Below, piece by piece: positions 2-18,871 of a stretch of 20,181 bases of DNA; the first letter of the stretch is position 1, and each line of letters starts with the position of its first letter. The position numbers and the translations under genes were made by a program. A model generated the notes under the pieces. It made no database searches, had not been told where the DNA came from, and was given only the letters and a program-made list of their open reading frames with translations. Source of the DNA: a virus. The stretch covers positions 1 to 20,181 of the IMG/VR virus record IMGVR_UViG_3300040801_001083, one strand, 5' to 3'.

Positions 2-301
2 CACCTCCCGAACCTCACGACGCTGTACGCCTGGGGCCACAGCGCGATCACGGACGCGGGGCTCGCGCACCTCCCGCACCTCACGACGCTGTACGCCTGG
101 GGCCACAGCGCGATCACGGACGCGGGGCTCGCGCACCTCCCGAACCTCACGACGCTGGACGCCTCGGGCAACAGCGCGATCACGGACGCGGGGCTCGCGC
201 ACCTCCCGAGCCTCACGAGGCTGGACGCCTGGGGCAACAGCGGGATCACGGACGCTGGACGCAAGGCCGTGCGAGGGAGACGATATGAACAAGCGAGTTA
301 G
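2..301 (+). CDS. Leucine-rich-repeat protein, C-terminal fragment (5' end outside window)
   Basis: This open frame enters from the left edge and stops at the TAG at 299-301. It encodes tandem 22-residue leucine-rich repeats of the form LPxLTTLxAxGxSAITDAGLAH, followed by a short basic tail (RKAVRGRRYEQAS) that probably caps the solenoid. The repeats fit the LxxLxLxxN/L scheme of LRR proteins, which usually bind other proteins or ligands through the concave beta face. The last 17 bases overlap the start of the next gene, so the two are probably cotranscribed. The repeats are nearly identical at the DNA level, which points to recent expansion. The reading frame and LRR identity are clear. The role (adhesion, host-range factor or effector) cannot be told from this fragment, and the start lies upstream of the window. 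Confidence 0.8.
   Translation, partial: HLPNLTTLYAWGHSAITDAGLAHLPHLTTLYAWGHSAITDAGLAHLPNLTTLDASGNSAITDAGLAHLPSLTRLDAWGNSGITDAGRKAVRGRRYEQAS
5..268 (+). repeat. Tandem 66-bp repeats coding for LRR units (three complete copies plus a divergent fourth)
   Basis: Units start at 5, 71, 137 and 203, exactly 66 bp (22 codons) apart. The first three copies differ at only a few positions, and each of those changes alters an amino acid (N/H, Y/D, W/S, H/N). No third-codon-position change separates them. The fourth copy diverges toward its end, where the solenoid stops. The array continues past the left edge. Confidence 0.9.
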
Positions 302-1217
302 AGAGACGCTGCGAGTGGGGATCGCCGAGGTCGAGGCCGGGTTGTCGAAGATCCATTCAGCGCAGAAGCTGATGGAGGTCGCCGGCGGCCGCGCGGAGGA
401 GCCCAAGGTCGAGATCAAGCGGCCCGAGCCGAATGCGATGGCGGGCCGTATCTTCTTCGCGTTCCTGCCGCGGGCGATCACGCCTATTGGACGTGACCGT
501 TGCATTATGCGACTCAGCCAGTCAATCTATTGGCGAGGCGGCGAATACAAGCTCCAGGCGAACGGCGACGCGCTGCGGCAAGCGCTCGCCAAGACGAACG
601 AGGATCTGGCGATCGTCCACAACTGCGAGGGGTCGGTCCATGCTGCGGCGTTTGATCCCAGCGCAGCGGATCACGACGAGGCCCTCGCGATGTATCACGA
701 GATCATTGACATTGCCAAAGAAGAGCGGCCGGACCTGCTTCACGGAATCTACGGCTTCCCGTACTGGTCGATTTACGACCCGGCCGGCGCATGGATGACG
801 GATAGCCGCGATGCGACGCGGGAATTGACTCAGCGCATGGATTTCGTCATTCCATCGGGCTACGACCGGATTCCTTGGCCAAAGCGATCGAACGAGGAGG
901 AGGCCGAGAAGCTGCGGCAGAATGTCGAGCTGATCCACGATAAGGTGCTGCTGAAACGTCAGCCGCTCGTCGTGGCCGTGAACCCGAGACGCGTTGGCGT
1001 ACAGCCGGAGGCGCCGCTCCACCGCGACGAGTTTCGGTCGAATATACGGGCATTGCGTCGAGGGTTTGACGACATCGGGCAGCCGCCGTCGGTGTACGTC
1101 TGGAACATCTCTTCGACGTGGACGCCAGGCAGCGAGAAGTTCGAGGGTGACGCGGATTCCACGACGCACGACGAAGCATGGTGGTACGAGATCGCGCGAG
1201 AGGAGCTGTTCGGATGA
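285..1217 (+). CDS. Hypothetical protein, possible TIM-barrel hydrolase-like fold
   Basis: This 310-residue protein has a predicted helical, charged N-terminus (residues 1-45). A series of strand-like segments with the spacing of a beta/alpha barrel follows: IFFAF (56-60), LAIVHNCEG (108-116), LLHGIYGFPYW (151-161), MDFVIPSGYD (185-194), PLVVAVNP (227-234) and VYVWNISSTW (270-279). Acidic or aromatic residues at strand ends (E115, Y194, W279) recall glycoside-hydrolase-like barrels such as lysozyme or hyaluronidase types, but no family signature is certain. There is no signal peptide. The ATG at 285 has GAGGGAGA just upstream and overlaps the LRR gene; the next gene starts in an ATGA overlap. 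It may be a virion-carried wall- or polysaccharide-active enzyme, but that is inference. Confidence 0.55.
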   Translation: MNKRVRETLRVGIAEVEAGLSKIHSAQKLMEVAGGRAEEPKVEIKRPEPNAMAGRIFFAFLPRAITPIGRDRCIMRLSQSIYWRGGEYKLQANGDALRQALAKTNEDLAIVHNCEGSVHAAAFDPSAADHDEALAMYHEIIDIAKEERPDLLHGIYGFPYWSIYDPAGAWMTDSRDATRELTQRMDFVIPSGYDRIPWPKRSNEEEAEKLRQNVELIHDKVLLKRQPLVVAVNPRRVGVQPEAPLHRDEFRSNIRALRRGFDDIGQPPSVYVWNISSTWTPGSEKFEGDADSTTHDEAWWYEIAREELFG

Positions 1218-1588
1218 CCCGCTACACCGTGCCGCACGACGCCATCCTCGAGCCGTTCACGATCGTTCAGACGCGCAGGTCGGCGCAGCTCCCGCCAGAG
1301 TTGATTGGCGTGGTCGTTCGTCCGAGCGGCTACGGCGCGTGGATCGTGGATGTCGGCATGGTGGATCGCCGGGTGCTGCCGATGGACGCACCTCGCAACC
1401 TTTGGGAGCTGAGAGTTGAGCACATCGAATTTGTTCTCAGCGAGTTCCCGCCAGAGGAGCGTTCGGGTCCACGGCATTTCCGCCCGGAGGTCGGACCAGT
1501 TGAGCCATCCATCCGTCATAGCCGTCGCCTGCAGGAGAAGCTCGACCGGCTGCGGTTCGATCACCGCAGGGCGAAGCGGCGGGCGTGA
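1214..1588 (+). CDS. Hypothetical protein, 124 aa
   Basis: I do not recognise the family. The start at 1214 is preferred because it forms an ATGA overlap with the preceding stop and has GAGGAG upstream; an in-frame ATG at 1178 would overlap the upstream gene by 40 bases. The first part looks beta-rich (ELIGVVVRPSGYGAWIVDVG). The C-terminus is strongly basic and helical (RLQEKLDRLRFDHRRAKRRA), which could bind nucleic acid or another protein. Translational coupling suggests it is made together with the barrel-like protein upstream. The frame stays open for 27 codons beyond its TGA, which is described separately. Confidence 0.6.
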   Translation: MTRYTVPHDAILEPFTIVQTRRSAQLPPELIGVVVRPSGYGAWIVDVGMVDRRVLPMDAPRNLWELRVEHIEFVLSEFPPEERSGPRHFRPEVGPVEPSIRHSRRLQEKLDRLRFDHRRAKRRA

Positions 1589-1600
1589 GGGGGCGAGAAG

Positions 1601-1672
1601 TTGCACCGTGACGCGATGGAGTATTTCGAGGAGGACGACTGCTATGCCCAGTGGCCGACCACGATCGAATAA
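1601..1672 (+). CDS. Possible small ORF (TTG start) or read-through tail of the upstream gene
   Basis: Immediately after the TGA at 1586-1588, the same frame is open to a TAA at 1670-1672. It contains a TTG at 1601 preceded by a purine-rich GGGGGCGAGAAG stretch and an ATG at 1616. The short acidic peptide (MEYFEEDDCYAQWPTTIE from the ATG) looks protein-like. It may be a separate micro-protein, a decayed gene end, or chance. A competing GTG-initiated frame (1608-1706) overlaps it. Confidence 0.2.
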   Translation: MHRDAMEYFEEDDCYAQWPTTIE

Positions 1673-1702
1673 CCAGCGGGTCAACAGTTGGAGTCTTGAG
1701 AC

Positions 1703-1792
1703 ATGAAGTTGACCGGATACGAAACGACGACTGGCCGGGTTATCGAAGATCCGGCCTCACGACAAGGAGAACGCGATGACAGAGACAGATAA
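1703..1792 (+). CDS. Possible small ORF, 29 aa
   Basis: The ATG at 1703 has GGAG about nine bases upstream and opens a 29-codon frame beginning MKLTGYETTTGRVIEDPAS and ending in a charged Arg/Asp-rich tail. Its last 17 bases overlap the next gene, whose own ribosome binding site (AAGGAG) lies inside this ORF. The first half looks like a plausible folded strand pair, but the length is too short for a firm call. Confidence 0.25.
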   Translation: MKLTGYETTTGRVIEDPASRQGERDDRDR

Positions 1793-2279
1793 CCAGCGGG
1801 GCGGCGTTTGCAACCAGACTCCAGCGCGCAGTGGTGTCAGTTGCATCGGCAGGATAGGTGGCGGTAAGGACGACTGGTTCGCTGAGTTGGACTTCGACAA
1901 CAACGAGGCGACGGTCGTTCGGCGTGGCAGTCGTGGCTACAACATCGGCCCGATTGCGACGGTCCCGCTCGGGCAGGTGTGGCCGGAGGACGACGACTAC
2001 GACGCCGAGCTGATGGACGACGAGCAGAACCGGAATCTCATGCTCATCGTGTTCGCGCCGGAACTTGTGCGGATCACCCAGGACATTCGCAACCGCTGCG
2101 TGAGGATGGCTGCTGACATCTGTCAGTTTCTCGACGACCAGAAGTCCGATCGCGAGAAGGTCCTGCGCACGGCCGCGACGTTCATCGAGATGATCGCCCT
2201 TGACATCGACGACTTCCAGGAAACGCTGCTTCCGCCTGAGCCGTGCAACCCTGAGCATCTGGCGGAGATCGAGCGATGA
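1776..2279 (+). CDS. Hypothetical phage protein, 167 aa
   Basis: The family is not recognised. The ATG at 1776 follows a good AAGGAG site. The N-terminus is Gly-rich with two cysteines (residues 12 and 23). A beta-like part follows (DDWFAELDFDNNEATVVRRG), then a highly acidic stretch (PEDDDYDAELMDDEQ), and the C-terminal half is helical with several Cys and Leu residues. The gene ends in an ATGA overlap with the next gene, so both are probably translated from one message. No signal peptide or membrane segment is visible. The acidic character and phage context would suit a small regulatory or virion accessory protein, but this is not supported by a motif. Confidence 0.6.
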   Translation: MTETDNQRGGVCNQTPARSGVSCIGRIGGGKDDWFAELDFDNNEATVVRRGSRGYNIGPIATVPLGQVWPEDDDYDAELMDDEQNRNLMLIVFAPELVRITQDIRNRCVRMAADICQFLDDQKSDREKVLRTAATFIEMIALDIDDFQETLLPPEPCNPEHLAEIER

Positions 2280-2524
2280 AGCGTTTCCGCACGAAGCCGG
2301 TCGAAGTCGAGGCGTTGCGGTTCGATCCGGATGGTTCGCATCGCGACGTGCTGCCGAAGGGCATTATTGCGGCTGAGATGCTGGATGAGTCGATCGAATA
2401 CTACATCAATCATCCGACGATGGGCGTGGAGTGGGTGCAGCCGGGCGACTGGCTGGTCTATCGAGGCGATCATGTTGAGCGGCACAACGCCGAGCAGTTC
2501 GCAGCCAGATTCGAGGAGTGTTAG
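2276..2524 (+). CDS. Small phage protein of the PGDW type, 82 aa
   Basis: The protein starts MKRFRTKPVEVEALRF and carries WVQPGDWLVYRG followed by a C-terminal EQFAARFEEC. This layout (basic KPVxxEAxxF start, central PGDW turn, closing FxxxFE) is recognisable from a very common family of small uncharacterised phage proteins, which usually end in a pattern such as PGDWIIxGxxGEFYPCKPDIFExTYE. The function of that family is unknown to me. The gene begins in an ATGA overlap with the previous gene and is followed after three bases by a large beta-rich gene. Its presence strengthens the phage assignment of the left arm. Confidence 0.75.
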   Translation: MKRFRTKPVEVEALRFDPDGSHRDVLPKGIIAAEMLDESIEYYINHPTMGVEWVQPGDWLVYRGDHVERHNAEQFAARFEEC

Positions 2525-2527
2525 CGC

Positions 2528-4201
2528 ATGTGGATACGCGACTTTGCATCCAGGGAGATCGCGACGGACGGGGAGGGCGCAAGCCCAACGCTTTCGTTCA
2601 CCGTGAAGAAGAACGAGATCATCGTCGCCGTATCGGCGATTTCCGGCGCAATCAGCGCTGGCACGCCTGCATGGCAGGCTGATGGGGAGTCGGCGCAGAG
2701 CATGAGCGGGGCGTCGGCGTTCGGCGTGGATACCTCGCTTGGCGCTGGCGCAACCGTACACGTCCTGTTCTCGCCGTCTGTCGGCGATGGATTGATCACA
2801 TGGGCGATAATCGGCAGCACCGATTATCGAGGCGTGTTGGCCGTGTACGCCATTCAGGCGGCGGGCTCGAGTCAAGATGATACTGACAGCGACAATGATC
2901 TCGGCGGCACGGATGGGCGGGCGAGCGTCACGGCTGAGGCGGCGGTCGAGCTTGCAATTCACACGTTCGCGCAGGCGGAGGACGCCAGCGGCGTTGTCGA
3001 GATCACAGACTACGACGGGGTGCAGGATGACGGTTCGGACAACGACGGCGACTACCAGCCGACCACGGTCGGCCACAAGCTAATGGAGTCGACCGGCGCA
3101 GACACGGTTGGACCCACAAGGGACGTCGCGTCAGGCTCCCCGACCTACGACGGCGGGCAGGCCGCCGTCCTGCTCGCCGCTGGCGCATCGGTTGAGTATC
3201 CTGGCGAGTCGAATACCAACAGACTTGTAGATTTTGCGACGGCGTTCGCGCAGGTGGCCGAGTACGCCGCTGGATCGTTGAGCGGCGGCAGCGATGGCTC
3301 GATGGAAGTCGGCCAAGTGGAGGGAACGAGTGATCTATTCGGCTGGTATTGGCAGTCAGACACGTTCAACGTCAGCGCTGGAGGATCCGTTCTCGTCTTG
3401 GTTGCGTGGCAGGGCGAGTACGTCGGCCCAATCGGTCCATCCGGAGCGCATATTCGGGTTGGCGATGTCCCAACGGTTTCAGGGGCGAACTTGGTCGGAT
3501 CGATTCGATCAGGCGAGTCTCAGGACGATGTGATTATTCAGGCGGCGCTCGCTTCGTACGAGGCTAGTGCGACGGGTCACCGGGTATGGGTCGAACATAT
3601 GACCGGCGATGTTGTTTTTTCGGACCCGCCCGATGAGGAAAACCCGATCGATGTCAACTCGCCGCCAGATCAGGCGCTTTGGGTCAAGGTCTACATTTTC
3701 GATGACACGTTCGTCGGTACCGATTCGCTTCGATACTGCTTGCTCGACGCTGAGCGCGGCCCTTGGTACGAGGACGACCCGCAGCAGGAGATCGGTTTCT
3801 ACGCTCCGCTTTCTGTTGACGACGCCGACAGCAACACGATGTCGGTGACGCTTTTCGCGGGCAACGGGATGGCGAGCGGCGGAGCATTCGAGAGCGGCAT
3901 CGGCCTTGCGGACACCGTGGAGTTGCGTGATTCGTTCTTCTCTGGCTCGTTCGGCTGCTTCCACGGACAGGGTGCAGCGGTGGCCGCGCAAGAGTACGAG
4001 TGGGGCGGTTCATTTACCAAGGAGGTCGTGAATGGCGCTGGTTTGGCGTTCGTTCTCGTCGGCGCGGATTACGAGGAGGGCGGCGGCGACGATCCGCCTC
4101 CGCCGCAAGATGATCCATCGCCGCGATGGATGCGCAACCGATACCGCCAGATCGGCGATCAGTCGAGGCGATCAAGCGGGCTGTTGGCAAGGGGGCATTG
4201 A
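2528..4201 (+). CDS. Large beta-rich putative virion surface or fibre protein, 557 aa
   Basis: This Gly/Ser/Ala/Asp-rich protein has alternating hydrophobic strand patterns and few charged helices, like phage decoration or fibre proteins with jelly-roll domains. Residues about 20-220 form one beta domain (SFTVKKNEIIVAVSAI near the start, QAAVLLAAGA at its end). Residues about 275-350 start similarly (FNVSAGGSVLVLVAW), suggesting a second related domain, and a third ends near GLAFVLVGADY (505-515). Two Asp/Asn-rich loops (117-129 and 161-175) resemble calcium-binding turns. The C-terminus changes sharply: an acidic, proline-rich linker (516-531) followed by a basic tail (532-557) rich in Arg. 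The start has GAGGAG nine bases upstream, and the stop overlaps the next ATG (TGATG). A virion location is inferred from fold type and position before the scaffold gene. Confidence 0.6.
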   Translation: MWIRDFASREIATDGEGASPTLSFTVKKNEIIVAVSAISGAISAGTPAWQADGESAQSMSGASAFGVDTSLGAGATVHVLFSPSVGDGLITWAIIGSTDYRGVLAVYAIQAAGSSQDDTDSDNDLGGTDGRASVTAEAAVELAIHTFAQAEDASGVVEITDYDGVQDDGSDNDGDYQPTTVGHKLMESTGADTVGPTRDVASGSPTYDGGQAAVLLAAGASVEYPGESNTNRLVDFATAFAQVAEYAAGSLSGGSDGSMEVGQVEGTSDLFGWYWQSDTFNVSAGGSVLVLVAWQGEYVGPIGPSGAHIRVGDVPTVSGANLVGSIRSGESQDDVIIQAALASYEASATGHRVWVEHMTGDVVFSDPPDEENPIDVNSPPDQALWVKVYIFDDTFVGTDSLRYCLLDAERGPWYEDDPQQEIGFYAPLSVDDADSNTMSVTLFAGNGMASGGAFESGIGLADTVELRDSFFSGSFGCFHGQGAAVAAQEYEWGGSFTKEVVNGAGLAFVLVGADYEEGGGDDPPPPQDDPSPRWMRNRYRQIGDQSRRSSGLLARGH

Positions 4202-4812
4202 TGGCGTTCCTCATAGCGTTAGCCGCGTCAGTGAACGAAGTGTCAGACGGAGACGTTGCCTGGACGAATCCAAGCAACATATTGACAAATGACGGTTCCA
4301 ACACGGAGATTGCATTGACGATCGCTTCGCCGCGATCAAACACGCTCCAGTTGCTCAACTTTTCGTCCGATCTGGCGGCGATTCCTGATGCGGCCACGAT
4401 TGACGGCATCGTGGTGGGGGTCGAGGGCGTCGCGATTGTGTCCGGCTTCGGCGCAAGCGCAGACCCGGACATCGACGTGCAGCTTGTCGTGGCGGGCTCG
4501 CCCACCGGCGATGTGCTTCAGATGCCTGAATGGCCGACGGGACCGCCGACAATGCGTAACACTGGCGGCGCATCCGAAACATGGGGGCTCGCGCTGACGG
4601 GTGCCGATGTCAAGGCGACGAACTTCGGCTTCCAGCACCAGATCGATCCCAACCTCTCTGGCGGACTTGCCACTTTGCAAGTGCAGAATGACTATGGCCG
4701 CATTATCGTTTACTACACAGAGCCGCCGCCGAGTGGCGGAGACGGCTCGCGGCGGTTCGTGCTGACCGGCGATTTTGGCGACCGGAGGCCGGGCGGCATT
4801 CATGGCAGATGA
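4201..4812 (+). CDS. Beta-sandwich putative virion protein, 203 aa
   Basis: The start at 4201 is chosen because it overlaps the previous stop (TGATG) and has AAGGGGG five bases upstream; an in-frame ATG at 4126 would add 25 residues inside the upstream gene. The protein shows a pattern seen in many phage genomes: VAWTNPSNILTNDGSNTEIAL near the start, then a central IDGIVVGVEG strand and a C-terminal DYGRIIVYYTEPP. This type is usually annotated as a hypothetical structural or receptor-binding-like protein. After the EPPPSGG linker comes a basic tail with RRFVLTGDFGDRRPGG, echoing the linker and basic tail of the preceding protein. It is probably a virion surface component made together with that protein. 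Confidence 0.6.
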   Translation: MAFLIALAASVNEVSDGDVAWTNPSNILTNDGSNTEIALTIASPRSNTLQLLNFSSDLAAIPDAATIDGIVVGVEGVAIVSGFGASADPDIDVQLVVAGSPTGDVLQMPEWPTGPPTMRNTGGASETWGLALTGADVKATNFGFQHQIDPNLSGGLATLQVQNDYGRIIVYYTEPPPSGGDGSRRFVLTGDFGDRRPGGIHGR

Positions 4813-4830: not shown

Positions 4831-5733
4831 ATGACGATGCAATGGACGCATCCGATCGTGATGAGGGCGCCCGATGACGTTGACGCGGGCGGCGGCGAAG
4901 TCGATGACGGCGATGTGGACACGCCGGATGAGGGTTGGCTGGACTCGCTCGGCCTGCCGACGGAGCTTCGGAGCCATCCGACGCTTGAGCCGGTGAGGTC
5001 GGCCGAAGGGCTGGTCAAGTCGTACATTGATACGCATGCGATGGTCGGCAGCCGCATCCCGATCCCGAAGGAAGATGACGCGGACGGATGGGAGGAGGTC
5101 TATGCGAAGCTCGGGCGACCGGAGGACGCCGCGGGCTACGAGTTTCCGACTGAAGGACTGCCTGAGAACATTCAAATAGACGAGCAAATGGTCGAGGCGT
5201 TCCGCGAGGAGGCGCATCGGCTCGGGCTGAACAAGCAGCAGGCCGCGGCTCTATACCGATTCGAGCTTCAGCGTGGGGCCGAGGCGATGGATCGCATCGA
5301 CCAACAGCGGATCGACGCCCGGAAGCAGGCTGAGGAGGAGCTTCGCAAGGAGTTCGGCAACGCGTTCGATCAGGAGATCCGGCTCGCGAAGGGCGCGGTC
5401 GCGAAGTTCGGCGGCGATGAACTTGCCGCGATGCTTGACGAAACAGGGCTTGGCGACAATCCGCATTTGGTTCGGGCGTTCGCGAAGATCGGCCGGGCGA
5501 TCGCAGAGGATGAGATCCTCGGAGAAGGCGCACACGCGAAGCCGATGCACACGGCCCGCTCGGCCAAGGAGGAGATCGACCGGCTGGAAAACGACCGCGA
5601 TTTCCAGAAGAAGTTGCACGGCGGCGACGCGGCGGCGAACCAGTTGTGGCAGGAGCTTTTCTCGGCGGCATACCCAGGCGAACGCCAGCTTCGGGCCTCG
5701 TCCGGCGAGATGTCCGGTCGGGCAAAAATCTGA
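4831..5733 (+). CDS. Capsid assembly scaffolding protein
   Basis: This 300-residue acidic protein sits directly before the major capsid gene, as T7-like scaffold genes do. The N-terminus is acidic (residues 14-34). Residues 58-105 hold a motif typical of phage scaffolds: an AEGLVKSY helix, then RIPIPKEDDADGWEEVYAKL and GRPEDAAGYEF. Residues 115-175 are helical and probably coiled-coil (EAFREEAHRLGLNKQQAAAL onward). The C-terminal part is helical with a short basic end (SGRAKI), which in scaffolds commonly contacts the coat protein. The start follows CAGGAGAC with good spacing. Its role would be to template procapsid assembly and then leave. A strong terminator closes this transcript 24 bases after the stop. 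Confidence 0.85.
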   Translation: MTMQWTHPIVMRAPDDVDAGGGEVDDGDVDTPDEGWLDSLGLPTELRSHPTLEPVRSAEGLVKSYIDTHAMVGSRIPIPKEDDADGWEEVYAKLGRPEDAAGYEFPTEGLPENIQIDEQMVEAFREEAHRLGLNKQQAAALYRFELQRGAEAMDRIDQQRIDARKQAEEELRKEFGNAFDQEIRLAKGAVAKFGGDELAAMLDETGLGDNPHLVRAFAKIGRAIAEDEILGEGAHAKPMHTARSAKEEIDRLENDRDFQKKLHGGDAAANQLWQELFSAAYPGERQLRASSGEMSGRAKI

Positions 5734-5756: not shown

Positions 5757-5804
5757 CGGTGGGCCATTATGCGCGGAGTCGTCGCCGCGCGGCCCACCGT
5801 TTTT
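5757..5804 (+). terminator. Strong intrinsic terminator after the scaffold gene
   Basis: A 9-bp perfect outer stem (CGGTGGGCC at 5757-5765 with GGCCCACCG at 5791-5799) stacks on a 6-bp inner stem (GCGCGG 5771-5776 with CCGCGC 5785-5790), with a five-base ATTAT bulge on the left arm and an eight-base loop. Five T residues (5800-5804) follow directly. This fits a textbook rho-independent terminator. It lies only six bases before a promoter -35 box. Confidence 0.9.
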
Positions 5805-5810
5805 CATGTG

Positions 5811-5845
5811 TTGACAGGATGCCGGTCGAAGGGTATAGGTGTTGA
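5811..5845 (+). promoter_or_regulatory. Sigma70-type promoter for the major capsid gene
   Basis: A perfect -35 box TTGACA (5811-5816) is followed by a 17-bp spacer and a -10-like TATAGG (5834-5839), matching four of six consensus bases. Transcription would start near 5845-5847. Its position between a strong terminator and the capsid gene makes a chance match less likely. It implies use of the host RNA polymerase for capsid expression. Confidence 0.7.
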
Positions 5846-5851
5846 CGGCCG

Positions 5852-5985
5852 GGTTGCTCCGATTTCGGGGTCCGGCAGACGGCGTGGTCAGACACGCCGC
5901 CCACGGGAGCGTCATCCCGAGGGGCGTCCGCCATGACGGCGGGTTGCGCTGCCGCGATCGAAGGTGCATGATGCACGGAGCAACC
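5852..5985 (+). promoter_or_regulatory. Structured 5' leader of the capsid gene that can mask its ribosome binding site
   Basis: GGTTGCTCCG (5852-5861), only a few bases after the predicted transcription start, is perfectly complementary over 10 bases to CGGAGCAACC (5976-5985). The latter contains the GGAG Shine-Dalgarno of the capsid gene and ends one base before its ATG. Inside this closing stem are several hairpins. CGGCGTG 5880-5886 pairs with CACGCCG 5893-5899. CGTCAT 5910-5915 pairs with ATGACG 5933-5938, with a GGC/GCC inner stem. GCGG 5939-5942 pairs with CCGC 5952-5955. TGCA 5965-5968 pairs with TGCA 5972-5975. The layout is a multibranched RNA closed by a stem that hides the ribosome binding site, like a riboswitch, thermosensor or autoregulatory site. 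No ligand class is recognised. Confidence 0.6.
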
Positions 5986-5986
5986 A

Positions 5987-6901
5987 ATGAGCAGCACAAT
6001 CTCCGAAGCGCACGTTCAGATGTTCGGACGGAACATCGTCACGCGTGCGCAGCAGATGAGCAGCCGTCTGCGGCCCTACATGCGGGTGCGGACGGGCATC
6101 GTCGGCGAGGCGTGGACGGTGGAGCGGGCCGGGCCAGCCGATGCGGTCGAGATCACGTCCCGACATTCTTCAACGCCACTCGTCGATACGCCGCATGACC
6201 GTCGTCGCGGCTATCTCCGCGACTACGCGTGGGCGGACCTGATCGACAAGCAGGACAAGGTGCGTCTGCTCGCCGACCCGCAGAACGCATACTCGAAGGC
6301 GGGCGCGGCGGCGATGGGCCGTCGGATGGATTCGACCATGATCGCGGCCGCGTCGGCGGACGTGGTCACGGGCAAGGATGGCGACGGCACGGCCAGCCTC
6401 GGCTCGGGTCAACAGATCGCCGTCGATTTCGTGGAGTCGGGCGTCGCGACAAACAGCGGCCTGACCATCGGCAAGCTCCGCGAAGCGCGTCGGATCTTCG
6501 GCGTCGCGGACGTGGACGATTCCGATCTCGAGATGGACGAGTATCTTTGCGCGATCGTCTCGCAACAGCAGATCACGGATCTGCTTCGCGAGGACGAGAT
6601 CACGAACGCGGACTACAACACCGTCCGCGCTCTCGTCAACGGCGAGATCGACACGTTCATGGGGTTCAAGTTCATCCGGACTCAGCTTCTCACGCTGGCG
6701 TCCGCGACGGGCTATCGCACTTGCCTGTTCACGGCGGGCAAGGGCGCGATCGAACTTGGCATCGGGGCCGACCTGATGTACGACGTGTCGATCCGGAACG
6801 ACCTGAACCTCGCGACGCAGGTCTACTTCTCGATGAGCATCGGCGCGGTGCGGGTCGAGGAGGAGCGCGTCGTCGAGTGCCTCTGCGCCGAGCCGACGTG
6901 A
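5987..6901 (+). CDS. Major capsid protein
   Basis: This 304-residue protein matches a widespread phage capsid family recognisable by eye. It has SRLRPYMRVRTG near residues 26-37, then EITSRHSSTPLVDTPHDRRR (55-74), LRDYAWADLIDKQDKVRLL (77-95), a NAYSKAGAAAMGRRMDSTMI helix (100-119), a LTIGKLREARRIFG helix (159-172) and a C-terminal SATGYRTCLFTAGKGAIELG (239-258). The family is expected to have the HK97-like coat fold and to form the icosahedral shell. The start has GGAG six bases upstream. The gene stands alone between two terminators with its own promoter and structured leader, consistent with a need for very high but controlled output. Length and position after the scaffold are typical. Confidence 0.9.
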   Translation: MSSTISEAHVQMFGRNIVTRAQQMSSRLRPYMRVRTGIVGEAWTVERAGPADAVEITSRHSSTPLVDTPHDRRRGYLRDYAWADLIDKQDKVRLLADPQNAYSKAGAAAMGRRMDSTMIAAASADVVTGKDGDGTASLGSGQQIAVDFVESGVATNSGLTIGKLREARRIFGVADVDDSDLEMDEYLCAIVSQQQITDLLREDEITNADYNTVRALVNGEIDTFMGFKFIRTQLLTLASATGYRTCLFTAGKGAIELGIGADLMYDVSIRNDLNLATQVYFSMSIGAVRVEEERVVECLCAEPT

Positions 6902-11148: not shown

Positions 11149-11691
11149 ATGGGTGGAACTGAACTTCTCATCGCAGGCGCGGTCACGTCGGCGGCTGGCT
11201 CCCTGTTCACGGGATTCTCGACGATGGCGGCGATGGAGCATCAATCAGACATCGCGCACCGGAACGCGACCTTCCAGAAGCAACTCGGAGAACGCAACGC
11301 GCGAGTCGCGTTGGAGCAGGGTCGGGTTGAACGGGCTAGACTGCGGCGGCAGAACCGACGGCGGATCGCGTCATTCGAGGCGCAGGCGGCAGGAAGCGGG
11401 TTCACGGCGGCTGGCTCGCCGACCGATGTCCTGCTCGACATGATGGCCGAAGCGCGGCAGGACGAGAAGCTGATTACCTACGGAGCGCAGACGGCGGCGC
11501 AGCAGGCGAGGCTGACCGGGGAGCTTCAGCGGATCACCGGGTACGAGCGGGCGGCGGCGCTGGAGACAGAGGGCGTCTCGCGTGCGATCGGCGGAAGCGG
11601 GCAGGCTGGAGGATCGTTGCTGACCGGCTTCGTGGACGATGACGGGACATCGCTGTTCAACACGGGCGGCGGCGGAGGAGGCGCGGAATGA
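11149..11691 (+). CDS. Small internal virion protein (T7 gp14-like), 180 aa
   Basis: The protein starts with a weakly hydrophobic segment (ELLIAGAVTSAAGSLFTGFS, residues 5-24), then a long charged helix of likely coiled-coil type (33-75) and a conserved-looking turn AAGSGFTAAGSPTDVLLDMM (80-99). A second long helix (102-145) and a Gly-rich end follow. This architecture is common in phage genes between the nozzle and the large internal proteins. In T7, gp14 inserts into the outer membrane and forms the first part of the ejection channel. The start has GGAGG eight bases upstream; the stop overlaps the next start (ATGA). Confidence 0.7.
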   Translation: MGGTELLIAGAVTSAAGSLFTGFSTMAAMEHQSDIAHRNATFQKQLGERNARVALEQGRVERARLRRQNRRRIASFEAQAAGSGFTAAGSPTDVLLDMMAEARQDEKLITYGAQTAAQQARLTGELQRITGYERAAALETEGVSRAIGGSGQAGGSLLTGFVDDDGTSLFNTGGGGGGAE

Positions 11692-14264
11692 GTCGAGGCG
11701 CTCCACAAGTCGGGTTCCGGGTCGGCGTGCCGAGCGGCCAACTGTCCGCGTCCGGACTCGGGTCATCGGGTCCGCCGTCAAATATCGGGATCGGACTTGG
11801 GCAGGGCATGCAGGCGTTCGGCGAGGCGATGCAACAGGTCGGGCGTCGGCAACTGCGCACGGATCACGCCCGGCAGTACGGGGCGGCGCAGAACCGCGTG
11901 ATCGAGGCGATCGGCGAGGCCAAGTTGAAGTCGTTGGACGCGGACCCGGCCGTGATGGACGACGTGTTCAACTCCGAGCTCGGCGAGGTCGGCGAGTACC
12001 TGAACAAGATCGAGAGCGAGAACGTCCGAAAGGACGCGATGACGTTCTTCGAGCGGACGCGTCTGCGGGAGCAGTTCACGATCCGGACCATCGCGGCCGA
12101 GCGCTCGCACCGGATGGCGCTGGACGAGTTCGGACGCAAGACGGCGATGCTGCAGGGCGTCCTCGGATCGGGCGGGGTCACGCTCGAGGAGGCCAACCGC
12201 ACGGTCGAGGAGTACGCGAACAGCTTGCGGGGATCGCTGGTCGGCGACGAAACGATTGCGGACCTGATCGATCAGGGCGCGCAGCGGATGGCGATCTCGC
12301 ACATTGAGCACCTGATCGCCGCCGATCCGGCGAAGGTGAAGGACGCGCTGAATCGCGACATGATCAAGCCCTACATCGATCCGACCGCACGGGCATCGAT
12401 GCTGAAGCGGGCTAATGCGAATCTGGAATTGAACCAGACGCGGGCGGCGACGGAGGAATGGCGCTCGATCACGGACGACGGATGGCAGGAGTGGCTGAAG
12501 AATCAATGGATGACGGTGGGCGTGGCCGAGTTCATCGATGAAGTGGACGAAACGATCGCCGCAATCGCGAACTCCGGGGCCGAAGTGTCGGATCAGTTCG
12601 GTGCGGGCGTTTCGCCAAACCGGGCGGATCTCAGGGCGGCGTACTGGATCCCGATCATCGAACGCCTGCCGTATCTCGATCCGAAGATGAATGGGCTGGA
12701 GCGATTTCAACTGTTGGTCGCGAAAGGCCAATTCAAGCATCCAGCCATCCTCGAATCGATCGATAAGGCGTCGGCGGCGTTCGATACGCAGATGACGCAC
12801 GTTCAGAAGGTCAACACAGCGATCGCTGAATTGCGGCGTGCGGCGACCATCGGACCACGGCAGAATCAGACATTGCCGGATGCGCCCGCTGGCCTGAACG
12901 GATGGTACGAGGAGCATCGTCTGCTTCAGGGAACGATCGTCACGGCGGCGGAGGGCGTCGGCCGGTCGGGAATGGAGCTTCCGCCTCAGTTCGTCAACGA
13001 CTGGAGCGCGATGGTCGCGGATCCGCAGCGGCGGGACATGGGACGAGCGATGGAAACGCTGCTCGCCCTGTACCAGTTCTCGCCGATCCGCGCACGCGAG
13101 CTTGCGGAAGGGCTTGGGGACGCACGCGGCGAGTTGATGTGGCACGCAGCGTCCAACTCAATGCGGCGGCTCGGCGGCGCTGCGCCCGAACAACGATCGC
13201 AGCAGGCGATCGAACGGGCGGACGTGTTGCAGCGAGCGACGGACGGCGAACTCGCCGCGATGCGAGCGATGTTGAACGGAACGCCGGACGGAAAGGTCGA
13301 GCCGCTGGACCGGCGCGAAGTGATGCCGAAGATCCAGTTGCCGCTGCGCACATCCGCTACGGATATGGCAAAGGGACGCGGAACGCGGATGGATCTGACG
13401 GAGAACCAGGCTCGCGAATGGGACGCCCTGTTCACGATTCACGCTCTGACGAAGGCAAAGGGCGAGGGCATCGATCTTCGCGGGATGGACCTCGCGGACA
13501 CGGAGAACGCGACGATCGACGCGATTCGGGATTATGCCGGCCTGATGGCGACGCGAGAAGTGCTGATCGATACAGCCATCCCGATCGAATCGGCGATCGA
13601 AGTGCCGGTGTGGGGCACGTTCGGCGTCGTTGATACGCAGAAGCCTCGGGTCGAGTTCATGCCCATCGAGGCGCTGACCGGCTCGTCCTCCATCGCCGCG
13701 TCCGCGATTACGCGTACGCAGCGCCAAGCAATCAATCAGGCCATCGCAGCGCACGCGACGGCGCGGGTGATTGCCAACGTGTACGGCGGCATCGTCGAGG
13801 CCAAGCCAGGCCGGGCGTTCCACTACGGCGGCAACGCGTACGTCCCGATGACGTACGACGGGGAGATCCAGCACTTCCTCGAGGTCCGCCTTTCCGGGCC
13901 GGGCGTCAAGACCAAAGTGATTGATTATCAGACGAATCGCGAGTTGTACCGCACGCTGTTCTATCAGGGCGACTTGACGCAGCGGATGGACGATTTTCGG
14001 ATTGGCTCGTGGGCGAACCGTCAACCGAACATGGCGGCGTACTACGCGGCGCGGCAAGATCAGTTCGAGCGGGACACGCGGCGCGGGGAACTGTTCGCCG
14101 ATCTGGCCGACCGAAGGTTTTACGCCATGTTCGAGCGCATGCCGGACGTGGAGAACGACGTTGACATGCGGGAAGTCGGACGCTTGATGAACGCCGTCGC
14201 ACGGGAATACGGCTGGAGTGGGTACATGCCGCCTGATAATCCGCAGGACAATACTTCGCCATGA
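11688..14264 (+). CDS. Large helical internal virion protein (T7 gp15-like), 858 aa
   Basis: A Gly/Ser/Pro-rich N-terminus (1-42) is followed by a mostly helical protein rich in Ala, Glu, Arg and Asp. Early segments such as FGEAMQQVGRRQLRTDHARQ (44-63) and an AISHIEHLIAADPAKVKDAL helix (202-221) match the style of phage internal core proteins. No catalytic motif, signal peptide or membrane segment was seen. Size, fold type and position, coupled by ATGA overlaps to both neighbours, support a role as the gp15-like component of the ejection apparatus that spans the periplasm with the gp16-like protein. Sequence identity to T7 gp15 is not evident by eye, so the call rests mainly on synteny. Confidence 0.65.
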   Translation: MSRGAPQVGFRVGVPSGQLSASGLGSSGPPSNIGIGLGQGMQAFGEAMQQVGRRQLRTDHARQYGAAQNRVIEAIGEAKLKSLDADPAVMDDVFNSELGEVGEYLNKIESENVRKDAMTFFERTRLREQFTIRTIAAERSHRMALDEFGRKTAMLQGVLGSGGVTLEEANRTVEEYANSLRGSLVGDETIADLIDQGAQRMAISHIEHLIAADPAKVKDALNRDMIKPYIDPTARASMLKRANANLELNQTRAATEEWRSITDDGWQEWLKNQWMTVGVAEFIDEVDETIAAIANSGAEVSDQFGAGVSPNRADLRAAYWIPIIERLPYLDPKMNGLERFQLLVAKGQFKHPAILESIDKASAAFDTQMTHVQKVNTAIAELRRAATIGPRQNQTLPDAPAGLNGWYEEHRLLQGTIVTAAEGVGRSGMELPPQFVNDWSAMVADPQRRDMGRAMETLLALYQFSPIRARELAEGLGDARGELMWHAASNSMRRLGGAAPEQRSQQAIERADVLQRATDGELAAMRAMLNGTPDGKVEPLDRREVMPKIQLPLRTSATDMAKGRGTRMDLTENQAREWDALFTIHALTKAKGEGIDLRGMDLADTENATIDAIRDYAGLMATREVLIDTAIPIESAIEVPVWGTFGVVDTQKPRVEFMPIEALTGSSSIAASAITRTQRQAINQAIAAHATARVIANVYGGIVEAKPGRAFHYGGNAYVPMTYDGEIQHFLEVRLSGPGVKTKVIDYQTNRELYRTLFYQGDLTQRMDDFRIGSWANRQPNMAAYYAARQDQFERDTRRGELFADLADRRFYAMFERMPDVENDVDMREVGRLMNAVAREYGWSGYMPPDNPQDNTSP

Positions 14265-17200
14265 GGTCGAGAAGCGCCTACGCCATCCCGCCGCAAATGA
14301 CCGTGCCGACGGCCATGATGATGACGAGTCCAACGGACACGGCGGCGGCGGATGCGTACCGTCGCATCCGGCAGCAGCAGCGGCCGGTCGGCGCTCAACC
14401 CGCCGTGCCAGGCATGATGACCGGCGCCGAGTCGCTCGATCAATGGCCGACGGAAAGCCGGTTGGAGACGCGGGCGTATCTGCCGCAGTTCGCCGACCCA
14501 ACCCTGATGGAGCGGTTCACGGACGAGACGGGGAAGGTCATCCCCGGCGCGTACGCCAGATTCATCGACCACGGCATCGCAGTAAACAATGCGCTGAAAT
14601 GGGTATTCGAGTCGATGGGGCTCGAGGGCGCCGCGGCGTATCAGCAACAGGTCGTGGACACGACGCAGCGGGTCGCGCTCGACGAGACGCTGTTCGGACA
14701 GGCGGCGCAAGAGGGCGGGCCTGGCGCGTTCATCGGCGGCGTCGCGACAGATATGTTGCCGTCGCTCGGGGCGGCGAAGATCAGACGAGGGGCGAAGGGG
14801 GCTGCGTTGCTCTACTACGGCATCGTCGCCGCGGGCGGCGGATCCGAGGACTACGCGGAAACGATGCGCGGACGCGGAATGGAGCCGGACGCGATCTCGG
14901 CGATCACGGTCGGCGTCGGATACGGCGCAATCGAGGTCGTGACGGAGAAACTCGGCATCGACCTGATCGGCCTGAAGTACGGTCCCGAAGCGGCGAGGAA
15001 GATCGGCGATCTGGTCCTGAAGGGCGAGTTCTCGGCCGCAGGGCGAGCGATCGGCGGCATTGTGGGCGTCGGCGCGTCAGGCGCCTCGGAAGAAGCAATG
15101 GCGCAGTTGGGGCAGAACGCGATCGCGCTGGCGTTCGATCCGGAACGGCCGATTTTCGAGGGCGTCGGCGAGTCGGCGGTCGCGGGCATGCTCGGCGCCC
15201 AAATGCACATCGCGTCCAACTTCGGTCTGACGAGTGCGAAGAATGTGATTAAGCCGCCGAAGCCCGGCGACCCGGACTTCCGGCCAACGCGTCGGCAGGC
15301 GATGGCGTGGGAGTCGGCGCAGGCCGATCTGCTTTCGACCCTGCCGCACGCGTCGCAACAGGCGATCGTCAACCGGATCGACGTGTCGTTGCGCGGCGAA
15401 TCGACGGCCGAAACGCAAGCGATCGCGATTGGCGACGAGCGTGTCGAGATTGCGATCAATCGAATGGACGCTGAAGCGCAGCAGGCCGCAATCGAAGAAA
15501 TCGATTCGGTGCTGGACGATCAGGCTGCGGCGCTGACGGAGCTCGACCGCGAAAGCCTGCAACTGCTCCGCAAGCGCATTGAACTGATCAACCGCGGCCC
15601 GATGCAGCATCGCGACGAAGCCGATGCGGAGGCGTGGGAACGGGTCGTCAAGGAAGCGAAGGAGATCGAGGAGTCCGGACTTCCCGCCGACGGCCCGAGC
15701 GGCGAGGCGGCAGCGGAGATCGAGGCCAGTCCCGAGGTCAAGCAACGCCAGCCGTCGATCGCGCAAGAGGTCCGCGGTCAGATCAATGCGCTGTTCGAGG
15801 CGATGGGCATTCGACCAAGGGAGAAAGGTCGCCAGCCGATCACGAAAGAACAGCGGCAGGCGGTGCGGGACCAGATCGAGTATCAGGTGAGGTCCGAACG
15901 CGAGAAGGTCCGAGCGGCGCGAATGGATCAGAAGCAGAAGGACAAGGCGGAGCTTCAGCGGGTCGATGCGACGCTGCGGCGGCGCATCGCGGATCGCGAC
16001 ACGGCGATCGGCGTTCGCGACGAAGTGATCCGACTGGCAAAGCAATACATGCCGCCCGAGATGCGAGGCCGCATCCTGACGACGCTACCCAAGATTCGAC
16101 CTGGATCTCGGAACCTGATCAAAAAGCTGGCGCAGGCCGTCGAGACGATCAAGATGGAGATCGACAAGGCGGAGACGGCCGAAGCGAGATCCGCAGCGCG
16201 TGACGCCATGAAGGCGCTGAAGTCGGCCAAACTGCGACCCGAGTTTCACCAGCAAGTCAAGGAGAAGCTCCGTGAACTGAACATTCAACCGTCGGCTCTG
16301 TCGTCGAAGAAGCGCGCGGAACTCGAGGCGCTCGAGAACTACGTCATGGCCTACGGCGACACGTTTGGGATCGCACCGGCGAAGATCGCCGAACTTGCCC
16401 GCTTGACGCAACGGCCGGTGAGCGAGTTGTCGAAGGACGAGGCGCAATACGTCGCGGACATGATCGCGGCGACCCTGCACGCGAACGACATGACCAACAA
16501 GCTGATCATGTCGATCCGCAATCAGCAGCGGGCGGCGAGGATCGATCGCGTGCTGAAAGAGATGCAGATGGTCGGGTTCCTTGTCGAGCGTAAGCAATTG
16601 CCGTCCGGGCGATTGGAGCCGCCGACTCGGGTCGGCCTCTACACGATGCCGTTCTCGGCCATCGCGAACACGAATCAAGGCCAGCAGGCGGAACTGCTCG
16701 GCGGGCCGTACGGCATGACGTACAAGGTGCTGGCTGACGACATCTTTGAGGCTGAGCATCGGCAACTGTCGCTCTATCAATCGGGGACGAACGAGCTGCA
16801 CGCGGCGATGGATGATCACGGATTTCCGCAGGGAAGCGAGGCCGCGGCCAAGCTGTCACAGACCGCGGCGCAGGTGTACGGGCGGCTCGAGGCGTGGCGC
16901 CGCGGCGAACCGGCCCGGAAAGGCGACACGAAGGCGGACATTCGCGAGTTCACGCTGGAGTCCGGTGACACGATCAAGGTCGATCCGGATCAACGCATGC
17001 ACCTGATGGCCGCGCTCATGGACGAGTGGCAGATGCACCAGATCACGCGCGAAAATGGCGGCGCGCCGATTTACATCGATGGCACGCCGAAGGGGCAATA
17101 TCACCAGCTGACGGTGAACGACGCGTATCGGATCCTGAATCCGGAGGACGAGGAGGGGAAGAACTACAAGGCGTTCGTCACGCGAATGATGGACTACATC

Positions 17201-18871
17201 GCAGGCCCGGTGCGGGACGCGATGCGGCAGTATTCAATCGAGACGCACGGATTTGACATCACACAGGCGGGCTACTACTTCCCGATCAACCGCGTGATCG
17301 AGGGGCAGACAAGGGAGGATCTGAGGTCCGGCCCGAGCGTGTTCGCGGCGACCATCGAGGGGGCGTCCATCACGAAGTATCGATCGGGCGGCGCTCGGCC
17401 GATCCGCATTACCGGGTTCATCCAGACGTTCAACAACCTGACCTGGACGAACTCGCAGGTCACGCAGATGGGACCGGCGATCCGAGCCGCACGCGAGGTT
17501 CTCCAGTCGGCCGAGATCACGCGATTCATGAGCAATAGCCGCAAGGGCCGAATCATCCGCGCACGAATCAACGAGCGATTCGAGGCGATCGCGAAGGAGG
17601 CGTTGGGATCGCCGCCGCCGTCGAGCATCTCGAACGACTGGCTGAAGCCGCTTGTGCAGAACATCGGCAAGTCGCTGCTTGGCTTCAACCTCGCGGTGCC
17701 GTTCTACCAGCCCGGCTCCATCTTCTGCATGAGGCATGTTCTGCCCGTTCGGAACGTCAGGCGGGCGGTTCGATTCGTCACCGATCTCCGCAACGCGCAC
17801 TATGTGTTCGGCGGCGAACTCATGCAGGAGATCCATCGCACGTCGCCGTACGCGTGGCATCGCGGTCGGCAAGGGGCGCAGGGCATCGTGCATGCGGGCG
17901 TCAGCCGTTCGCCGCAACTGACCGGCCAGAAACGCGATTGGACCGAGGGATCGATGTTCGCGATCTCGGCTATGGACAATGTCGCCATCCGCGTTGCGTA
18001 CCTCGCCGCCAAGTTCACGGTCGAGGACACGGTCGCAGAGATTCAGCAGAAGAACGAGGCTCGCGACGAGATGGAGATGGCGAAGATCAAGACGCCCACG
18101 GAGGAGCAGCAGCGCGACATGACGCGCAAGCTGACCGACCTCACCATCCAGCAGACGCAGCCGACGTGGAACGCCCTGCACGACACGTCGATCGGCGTCG
18201 AGGCCAAGAGCAATGTCCTGTTCAAAATGATGTCGATGTTCCGCTCGCAGCGCAACAAGAATCTTGGCATGACGGTCATCGAACTCTACCGATATCGCCG
18301 AGCGCGTCATCTGCCGCCGAAGGAGCGGACGCTGGCGAGGCGTCAGATCCGTCGAAATCTCCGATCAATTTGGATCTATCAGCCGCTCTACATCATGTTC
18401 TTCAAATGGCTGCGGCGCTTCCTCGTCTACGGGTTGCCGGGGCTGTTGGCCGGGAAGTCATGGGATTGGGCGCGCGAAAAGACCGGCGTGGACAACCTTC
18501 AGTCGCAGCTCGCGCAGTATGTCGAGCTTGGCATCGGCAACGTGTTCTTCGCCGACAAGCTGGCGTTCGTCGTCAATCGAACGCTTCTGCCGGAAAGCGG
18601 GCGGCGATTCGAGCCGGACGCGAGCCCAGTCGCGGGACTGGCCCGTGACCAGATGATGTCATTGATCGAGGGTTCGACGTATATTCGGGACGAGGAGCGG
18701 TCGGAATGGGGCTGGACGGAGCCGATTCTGGACTTCGTTCAGGCGGCGGCAGCGCTGGCCGGGAAGCCGATCGTGTCGCCTTTGCGGGATATTCGTGCGA
18801 TCATCCGATCGATTCGCGAGGAAGAAGATGAGGACGATTCCGGCCGACGGGCCACGACGGTAGGAGGGTGA
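14261..18871 (+). CDS. Giant internal virion protein (T7 gp16-like position), 1536 aa
   Basis: The longest gene of the window, starting in an ATGA overlap with the gp15-like gene. Residues 155-320 are rich in small and hydrophobic residues with helix pairs (ALLYYGIVAAGGG, AISAITVGVGYGAIEVV, AGRAIGGIVGVGASG), suggesting membrane insertion. Residues about 400-480 and 525-660 are charged and probably coiled-coil. Around 1130-1170 comes a segment with LLGFNLAVPFYQPGS, then a helical region to 1345, and a second hydrophobic zone WIYQPLYIMFFKWLRRFLVY (1371-1390) continuing to LPGLLAG. The C-terminal third resembles the end domains of large polyvalent phage proteins. No lytic transglycosylase motif is visible, unlike T7 gp16. 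The likely role is a co-ejected protein forming the inner-membrane part of the DNA channel. Confidence 0.7.
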   Translation: MRSRSAYAIPPQMTVPTAMMMTSPTDTAAADAYRRIRQQQRPVGAQPAVPGMMTGAESLDQWPTESRLETRAYLPQFADPTLMERFTDETGKVIPGAYARFIDHGIAVNNALKWVFESMGLEGAAAYQQQVVDTTQRVALDETLFGQAAQEGGPGAFIGGVATDMLPSLGAAKIRRGAKGAALLYYGIVAAGGGSEDYAETMRGRGMEPDAISAITVGVGYGAIEVVTEKLGIDLIGLKYGPEAARKIGDLVLKGEFSAAGRAIGGIVGVGASGASEEAMAQLGQNAIALAFDPERPIFEGVGESAVAGMLGAQMHIASNFGLTSAKNVIKPPKPGDPDFRPTRRQAMAWESAQADLLSTLPHASQQAIVNRIDVSLRGESTAETQAIAIGDERVEIAINRMDAEAQQAAIEEIDSVLDDQAAALTELDRESLQLLRKRIELINRGPMQHRDEADAEAWERVVKEAKEIEESGLPADGPSGEAAAEIEASPEVKQRQPSIAQEVRGQINALFEAMGIRPREKGRQPITKEQRQAVRDQIEYQVRSEREKVRAARMDQKQKDKAELQRVDATLRRRIADRDTAIGVRDEVIRLAKQYMPPEMRGRILTTLPKIRPGSRNLIKKLAQAVETIKMEIDKAETAEARSAARDAMKALKSAKLRPEFHQQVKEKLRELNIQPSALSSKKRAELEALENYVMAYGDTFGIAPAKIAELARLTQRPVSELSKDEAQYVADMIAATLHANDMTNKLIMSIRNQQRAARIDRVLKEMQMVGFLVERKQLPSGRLEPPTRVGLYTMPFSAIANTNQGQQAELLGGPYGMTYKVLADDIFEAEHRQLSLYQSGTNELHAAMDDHGFPQGSEAAAKLSQTAAQVYGRLEAWRRGEPARKGDTKADIREFTLESGDTIKVDPDQRMHLMAALMDEWQMHQITRENGGAPIYIDGTPKGQYHQLTVNDAYRILNPEDEEGKNYKAFVTRMMDYIAGPVRDAMRQYSIETHGFDITQAGYYFPINRVIEGQTREDLRSGPSVFAATIEGASITKYRSGGARPIRITGFIQTFNNLTWTNSQVTQMGPAIRAAREVLQSAEITRFMSNSRKGRIIRARINERFEAIAKEALGSPPPSSISNDWLKPLVQNIGKSLLGFNLAVPFYQPGSIFCMRHVLPVRNVRRAVRFVTDLRNAHYVFGGELMQEIHRTSPYAWHRGRQGAQGIVHAGVSRSPQLTGQKRDWTEGSMFAISAMDNVAIRVAYLAAKFTVEDTVAEIQQKNEARDEMEMAKIKTPTEEQQRDMTRKLTDLTIQQTQPTWNALHDTSIGVEAKSNVLFKMMSMFRSQRNKNLGMTVIELYRYRRARHLPPKERTLARRQIRRNLRSIWIYQPLYIMFFKWLRRFLVYGLPGLLAGKSWDWAREKTGVDNLQSQLAQYVELGIGNVFFADKLAFVVNRTLLPESGRRFEPDASPVAGLARDQMMSLIEGSTYIRDEERSEWGWTEPILDFVQAAAALAGKPIVSPLRDIRAIIRSIREEEDEDDSGRRATTVGG

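Follow-up and report, generated by a model that had tools for sequence, protein, structure and literature searches.

Comparison of capsid gene leaders points to a conserved and widespread two-module RNA with which the capsid transcript begins in podophages that have PF19821-type capsids and diverse bacterial hosts. We tentatively read its two bulged hairpins, at somewhat less than even confidence, as twin protein-binding sites that would tune capsid synthesis. Sequence analysis supports the modules themselves, their covariation, their restriction to capsid leaders and, in the window, the predicted exclusivity of one module and a helix that masks the Shine–Dalgarno (SD) sequence; the window is the whole stretch of DNA analyzed here, a virus record of 20,181 bases. 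The grounds for a real, cis-acting leader RNA are good, and those for any particular function are weak. The balance of capsid and scaffold protein is poorly understood in tailed dsDNA phages. The element precedes the capsid genes of pelagiphages, which rank among the ocean's most abundant phages, as well as those of Vibrio phages in culture, which makes it directly testable.

In the window, a capsid-assembly protein gene of scaffold/protease-like type (4831–5733, + strand; PHROG 3742, of unknown function, and PHROG 458, "protease") corresponds to the gene found 5' of the capsid gene in annotated relatives. It is followed by an intrinsic terminator (5757–5804, +), a long G+C stem and then TTTTT, which closes off upstream transcription and whose stem also appears in a weak cmscan alignment. 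Next comes a predicted sigma-70-type promoter (5811–5839, +), with a −35 box TTGACA at 5811–5816, a 17-nt spacer and a −10 box TATAGG at 5834–5839; transcription is expected to start near 5846. A simple consensus scan did not list this promoter because position 6 of its −10 box is G. The major capsid protein gene (5987–6901, +; PF19821, Pfam E 1.5e-75; PHROG 3437, PHROG E 9.5e-68) starts with an ATG at 5987, and its SD, GGAG at 5977–5980, lies 6 nt upstream of that codon.

Most relatives (34–48% capsid identity) keep the order of scaffold and capsid genes, commonly with 130–300 bp between them; in HTVC010P and HTVC203P a small ORF is annotated in this gap. Several large reading frames of the window (285–4812 and 11688–18871) lack a Pfam or PHROG match, among them proteins of 557, 858 and 1536 aa, the latter two compared with Pfam only; the late gene order is otherwise podovirus-like. 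A strong intrinsic terminator at most ~60 nt 3' of the capsid gene was seen in L010, L035, L039, L192 and L197, and most other relatives lack one; such a terminator would make the capsid mRNA partly monocistronic.

The two-copy module in capsid leaders

A recurrent module became apparent on reading about 80 leaders, and comparison of about 100 leaders of the PF19821 capsid family resolved it into a two-copy RNA element. Each module has a GG/CC step, a 4-nt strand on one side (GUAG, GCAG, AUAA, ACAA and others) facing a single U or C, and then a second stem. In RNAalifold predictions for one cluster, the fourth nucleotide of the long strand pairs with the single one, leaving three bulged nucleotides (R-Y-A) adjacent to a wobble pair. 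The module can thus be written 5'-GG/RYA/R-C-3' facing 5'-G-Y/CC-3', with the 3-nt bulge beside a G.U, A.C or A-U pair. Copy A has its long strand first and copy B has it last, and in pelagiphage-type leaders both copies are of type B. By eye, the capsid leader of L104 appears to contain three modules in which the bulge is CAA and A stands opposite A.

Both copies are present in the window. Copy A (5848–5876, +), found by descriptor and comparison and with equivalents in many relatives, runs GCCGG, bulge GUU, G-CUCCG, loop AUUU, CGGGG-U, CCGGC, and its bulge adjoins a G.U pair; copy B (5923–5950, +) runs GGCG-U, CCGCC, loop AUGAC, GGCGG, bulge GUU, G-CGCU, so that its bulge is that of copy A. 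The third bulge position is U in both copies of the window and A in most other leaders. Two modules arose in only 0.25% of 2000 shuffles of the window. Copy B ends 36 nt before the ATG; among the 22 leaders scored as having two modules, 14 have a corresponding distance of 28–46 nt, and it is 34 nt to the annotated start in phiVC8, and 73–78 nt in some pelagiphage leaders. A narrow covariance model (R1), built from 13 sequences without the window, recovered L010 (1e-8), L002 (0.004) and, weakly, L009 and phiVC8. It did not find the window, and the window's membership therefore rests on descriptor, position and spacing. In a full-length alignment of all clusters MAFFT misaligned the second module, and RNAalifold alone missed module B on the cluster alignment.

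The descriptor was written from leaders L001–L107 and then applied to shuffles and to leaders fetched later. Of the 74 training leaders, 49 had at least one module (against 2.7 in shuffles) and 34 had two that did not overlap (0.03); among the 28 held-out leaders the numbers were 14 (1.2 in shuffles, at most 5) and 7 (0.02). The reverse strand yielded modules in 5 of 103 leaders. Under stringent scoring, 22 of 68 representatives carry two modules, and the others have one module, a variant or none.

The modules also covary. As a guard against circularity, module B was picked on its core letters alone, and pairing between the three positions flanking it on either side was then scored. Of 41 representatives, 63% formed all three pairs, whereas permutation gave 14% on average and at most 32% in 2000 permutations; each flanking position showed four to six pair types. 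The pair adjoining the bulge was G.U, A.C or A-U in every fully paired case. G.U and A.C wobbles are similar in shape, and their exchange across genomes therefore argues for a real pair at this position. A sequence-only alignment of 13 leaders from one cluster contained compensatory changes, including a GC-to-AU exchange beside the bulge and a CG-to-AU exchange within module B, and none of 500 shuffles reached its covariation score. Within a genome, the 4-nt strand is identical in both copies in 64% of cases versus 23% when permuted, an agreement that shared ancestry explains in part.

Linkage to one capsid family

Scanned on both strands, the window (5848) and the complete genomes of phiVC8 (5510) and Baldr (8383) each contain the twin module once, at the capsid leader; no strict twin module was found on either strand of HTVC203P or MW202510. 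For a search blind to proteins, IMG/VR was scanned with a DNA pattern of 15 fixed bases representing one form of module B. Among the matches listed, 64 of 80 sites are followed by a PF19821-like capsid gene, 48 of these with a module A upstream, and most of the remaining 16 look like chance; one site (L241) lies at a contig end before a short reading frame resembling a truncated capsid start. Because matches to this pattern mostly precede PF19821-like capsid genes, the RNA element travels with that capsid family. It is dispensable, since six alphaproteobacterial prophages with related capsids (L092–L096 and L107, mostly from gut or rumen genomes; capsids 39–41% identical) do without it; their leaders are short, ~71–86 nt, and mostly just a terminator.

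The deposited "putative promoter" of the phiVC8 capsid gene (L199, 5551–5601) covers module B, and a better promoter, TTGACT-17-TATAAT at 5452–5480, lies upstream of both modules. Upstream of the leader in phiVC8 (5452–5501), L001, L011, L018 and L109, a TATAAT-like −10 box sits within an inverted repeat. The repeat would therefore fold into a hairpin in read-through transcripts but not in those initiated at the promoter; the phiVC8 annotation marks the site as a terminator.

The proposal that the leader is a structured, previously undescribed RNA agrees with the database searches, in which neither the window nor 20 relatives had an Rfam 15 match at the gathering threshold. Permissive thresholds gave sub-threshold, chance-like matches or none; L19_leader, Atu_Ti1 and sX7 were set aside as far below their gathering scores, on the wrong strand or matching a generic terminator stem. 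A literature search of partial coverage, which leaves room for an earlier description, returned none of a capsid-leader RNA, and we know of no widely conserved capsid-leader RNA in tailed dsDNA phages.

The SD-masking helix of the window

The sequence-only reading of this DNA had described a 10-bp helix closing the leader over its ribosome binding site, and much of that description holds for the window. The two 10-nt arms, GGTTGCTCCG at 5852–5861 (+) and CGGAGCAACC at 5976–5985 (+), are exact reverse complements; the left arm falls within copy A, the right arm contains the GGAG, and the promoter placed just before the left arm, TTGACA-17-TATAGG, is plausible. When folded and compared with shuffled sequences, as had been proposed, positions 5845–5995 (151 nt) reach −78.5 kcal/mol with the arms paired, against a dinucleotide-shuffle mean of −65.6 (z −3.2). 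The GGAG is hidden in the predicted fold, with an unpaired probability of ~0.002 versus a mean of 0.45 in shuffles. In partition-function calculations on transcripts from 5845/5846 ending between 5990 and 6400, it stays buried with up to 400 nt of coding sequence added, and it is partly exposed in transcripts that lack the left arm.

The helix also exceeds chance. With the last 22 nt fixed and the remainder shuffled, 48 of 20,000 shuffles (0.24%) had an uninterrupted helix of 10 bp or longer involving those 22 nt, and in 5 of 20,000 (0.025%) such a helix was anchored within the leader's first 22 nt; these figures call for the usual caution with a helix picked out of a 20-kb window. None of eight other gene starts tested in the window has a comparable helix. 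The only other exact two-arm match among IMG/VR sequences (L090) was rejected as a chance match inside an unrelated long gene.

The inner hairpins proposed between the arms are real, with boundaries better drawn at 5881–5898, 5904–5919, 5923–5950 (copy B) and 5964–5976. By folding and sequence, linker hairpin 1 (5881–5898, +) pairs GGCGUG with CACGCC, and a small hairpin directly 5' of the SD (5964–5976, +) has the form GUGCA-UGA-UGCAC. Linker hairpin 2 (5904–5919, +), CGGGA-GCGUCA-UCCCG, has a counterpart with a similar loop (GCGUUA/GCGUCA) 5' of copy B in the L035–L077 cluster. In the window its loop (GUCAU) could pair with that of module B (AUGAC) in a kissing interaction, which was not seen in relatives read by eye.

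The left arm is the 5' strand of copy A, so module A and the SD helix are predicted to exclude each other. In simulated growing transcripts module A forms early with probability 0.98, still has 0.94 at nt 5980, and gives way to the SD helix, at 0.91, from 5986; the leader folds to −73.4 kcal/mol with module A forced and to −78.5 when free. By these predictions the SD of the window is paired in the ground state and open in an alternative state through the module A fold. Folding models make masking a real prediction for the window alone, and reaching the masked state in the cell would depend on refolding speed and on ribosomes.

Masking of the SD as a shared mechanism found no support in the comparison with relatives. 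A comparable helix at p ≤ 0.05 was found in 5 of 67 representative leaders (3.4 expected) and is absent from the other 62, its partners lie at unrelated places among the leaders, and several members have no recognizable SD. No near relatives of the window, in which covariation of the 10-bp helix would show, turned up in searches with its scaffold protein, tail tubular protein and downstream proteins; matches, where there were any, did not exceed 40% identity. The idea that the essential act is to sequester the SD in a long-range helix until a ligand or factor frees it draws on the nonrandom helix and buried SD of the window, and on an excess at p ≤ 0.01 in 4 of 67 capsid leaders (window included) versus 0 of 117 other gene starts. 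As read from the sequences, the window and L003 use a strand of module A for this helix and L106 a strand of module B, which hints at repeated independent wiring in a few members. In 12 of 54 SD-bearing leaders the SD is less accessible than in ~90% of shuffles, and some occlusion may be more general than we credit here. Given the rarity of the helix among the 67 leaders and the members without an SD, masking is a lineage feature at most and looks like a local addition; we consider it unlikely that it is the element's essential act.

Candidate functions and known systems

The view that the leader gates capsid translation fares better in part: the RNA is structured, and it is reasonable to consider the capsid or scaffold protein as its ligand, but the conserved part is two bulged hairpins and not the mask. 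A protein operator with two sites is suggested by several features taken together: the conserved bulge letters and wobble geometry, the matched duplication, the location at the 5' terminus and the tie to a single capsid family. In this operator reading, each module presents a hairpin with a 3-nt bulge (R-Y-A; GUU in the window) between the GG/CC step and a wobble-like pair, and the two copies would be twin sites for one protein, our best guess being the capsid protein or the scaffold. We infer the binding, the identity of the protein and the direction of control from sequence. The bound protein would tune capsid synthesis; in the window, a bound or freshly made leader with module A folded would leave the SD open, a relaxed free leader would close it, and masking would be a window-specific output. 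The fuller proposition—that a large class of dsDNA podophages, with SAR11, Vibrio, Alteromonas and other hosts, places the major capsid gene under a conserved two-site RNA operator bound by capsid or scaffold protein, with, in some GC-rich members, a riboswitch-like toggle between operator hairpin and SD-masking helix—is improbable as a whole.

Three further explanations are only partly separated by the data. A 5' stability or processing element, in which hairpins shield an abundant capsid mRNA from decay or direct its processing, is consistent with the high stability and with the position at the very 5' end, after the predicted promoter. Plain hairpins would suffice for that role, however, and the preserved bulge and wobble geometry, together with the identical letters of the two copies, suggests that the RNA is recognized; we consider a stability function rather unlikely.

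A nascent-RNA element acting on RNA polymerase, a put-like antiterminator for the late operon, finds its model in HK022 putRNA (putL), a pair of stem-loops with which a phage transcript begins, immediately downstream of its promoter (PMC9378689). The position just after the promoter fits, as do the intrinsic terminators after the capsid gene in several relatives, although most relatives have none. Positions 20–40 kb of HK022, scanned with the same descriptor, contain no twin module; put itself was not located there, so that put is compared by description. HK022 put serves early operons and binds RNA polymerase, whereas the present element is tied to the capsid gene, and linkage to one capsid family is unexpected for a polymerase-binding element. 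The scan, the capsid linkage and the scarcity of terminators led us to demote this hypothesis to one of low probability.

Least probable, by a little, is a translation enhancer or ribosome standby element that aids initiation, also in SD-less members: the second module often ends 28–46 nt upstream of the start codon, immediately beyond the footprint of an initiating ribosome, and several members lack an SD, but the wider spacing in some pelagiphage leaders tells against it, and genomes with SD-less capsid genes use SDs less in general (21 of 65 versus 112 of 182 other ORFs), so the leader need not replace an SD and a role as its substitute is unsupported.

Among known systems, SD-masking riboswitches and RNA thermometers (for example, ROSE) resemble the window, where the SD is predicted to lie, in the ground state, within a long helix incompatible with another hairpin. 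They differ in that the mask here is not conserved in the family, and the leader matches no Rfam family and no known ligand aptamer. The capsid gene of T7, gene 10, has its own T7-type promoter and a structured leader between scaffold and capsid gene. The arrangement is shared, whereas the phages considered here have a host-type promoter, a different capsid family assignment and twin bulged modules.

In RNA phages of the MS2/Qbeta/PP7 type, the coat protein binds a bulged hairpin before or at the start of a phage gene and represses it autogenously. The capsid leaders likewise place a bulged hairpin 5' of a phage gene, protein binding being the RNA phages' feature. They differ from the MS2/Qbeta/PP7 operators in belonging to dsDNA tailed phages, in having two identical modules with an asymmetric 3-nt bulge, and in lying ~35 nt upstream of the start codon instead of on it, features known here from sequence. 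If capsid or scaffold protein binds, the element would be a compact new RNA–protein module, and operator control by coat protein, known from RNA phages, would reach into a large group of tailed phages as well.
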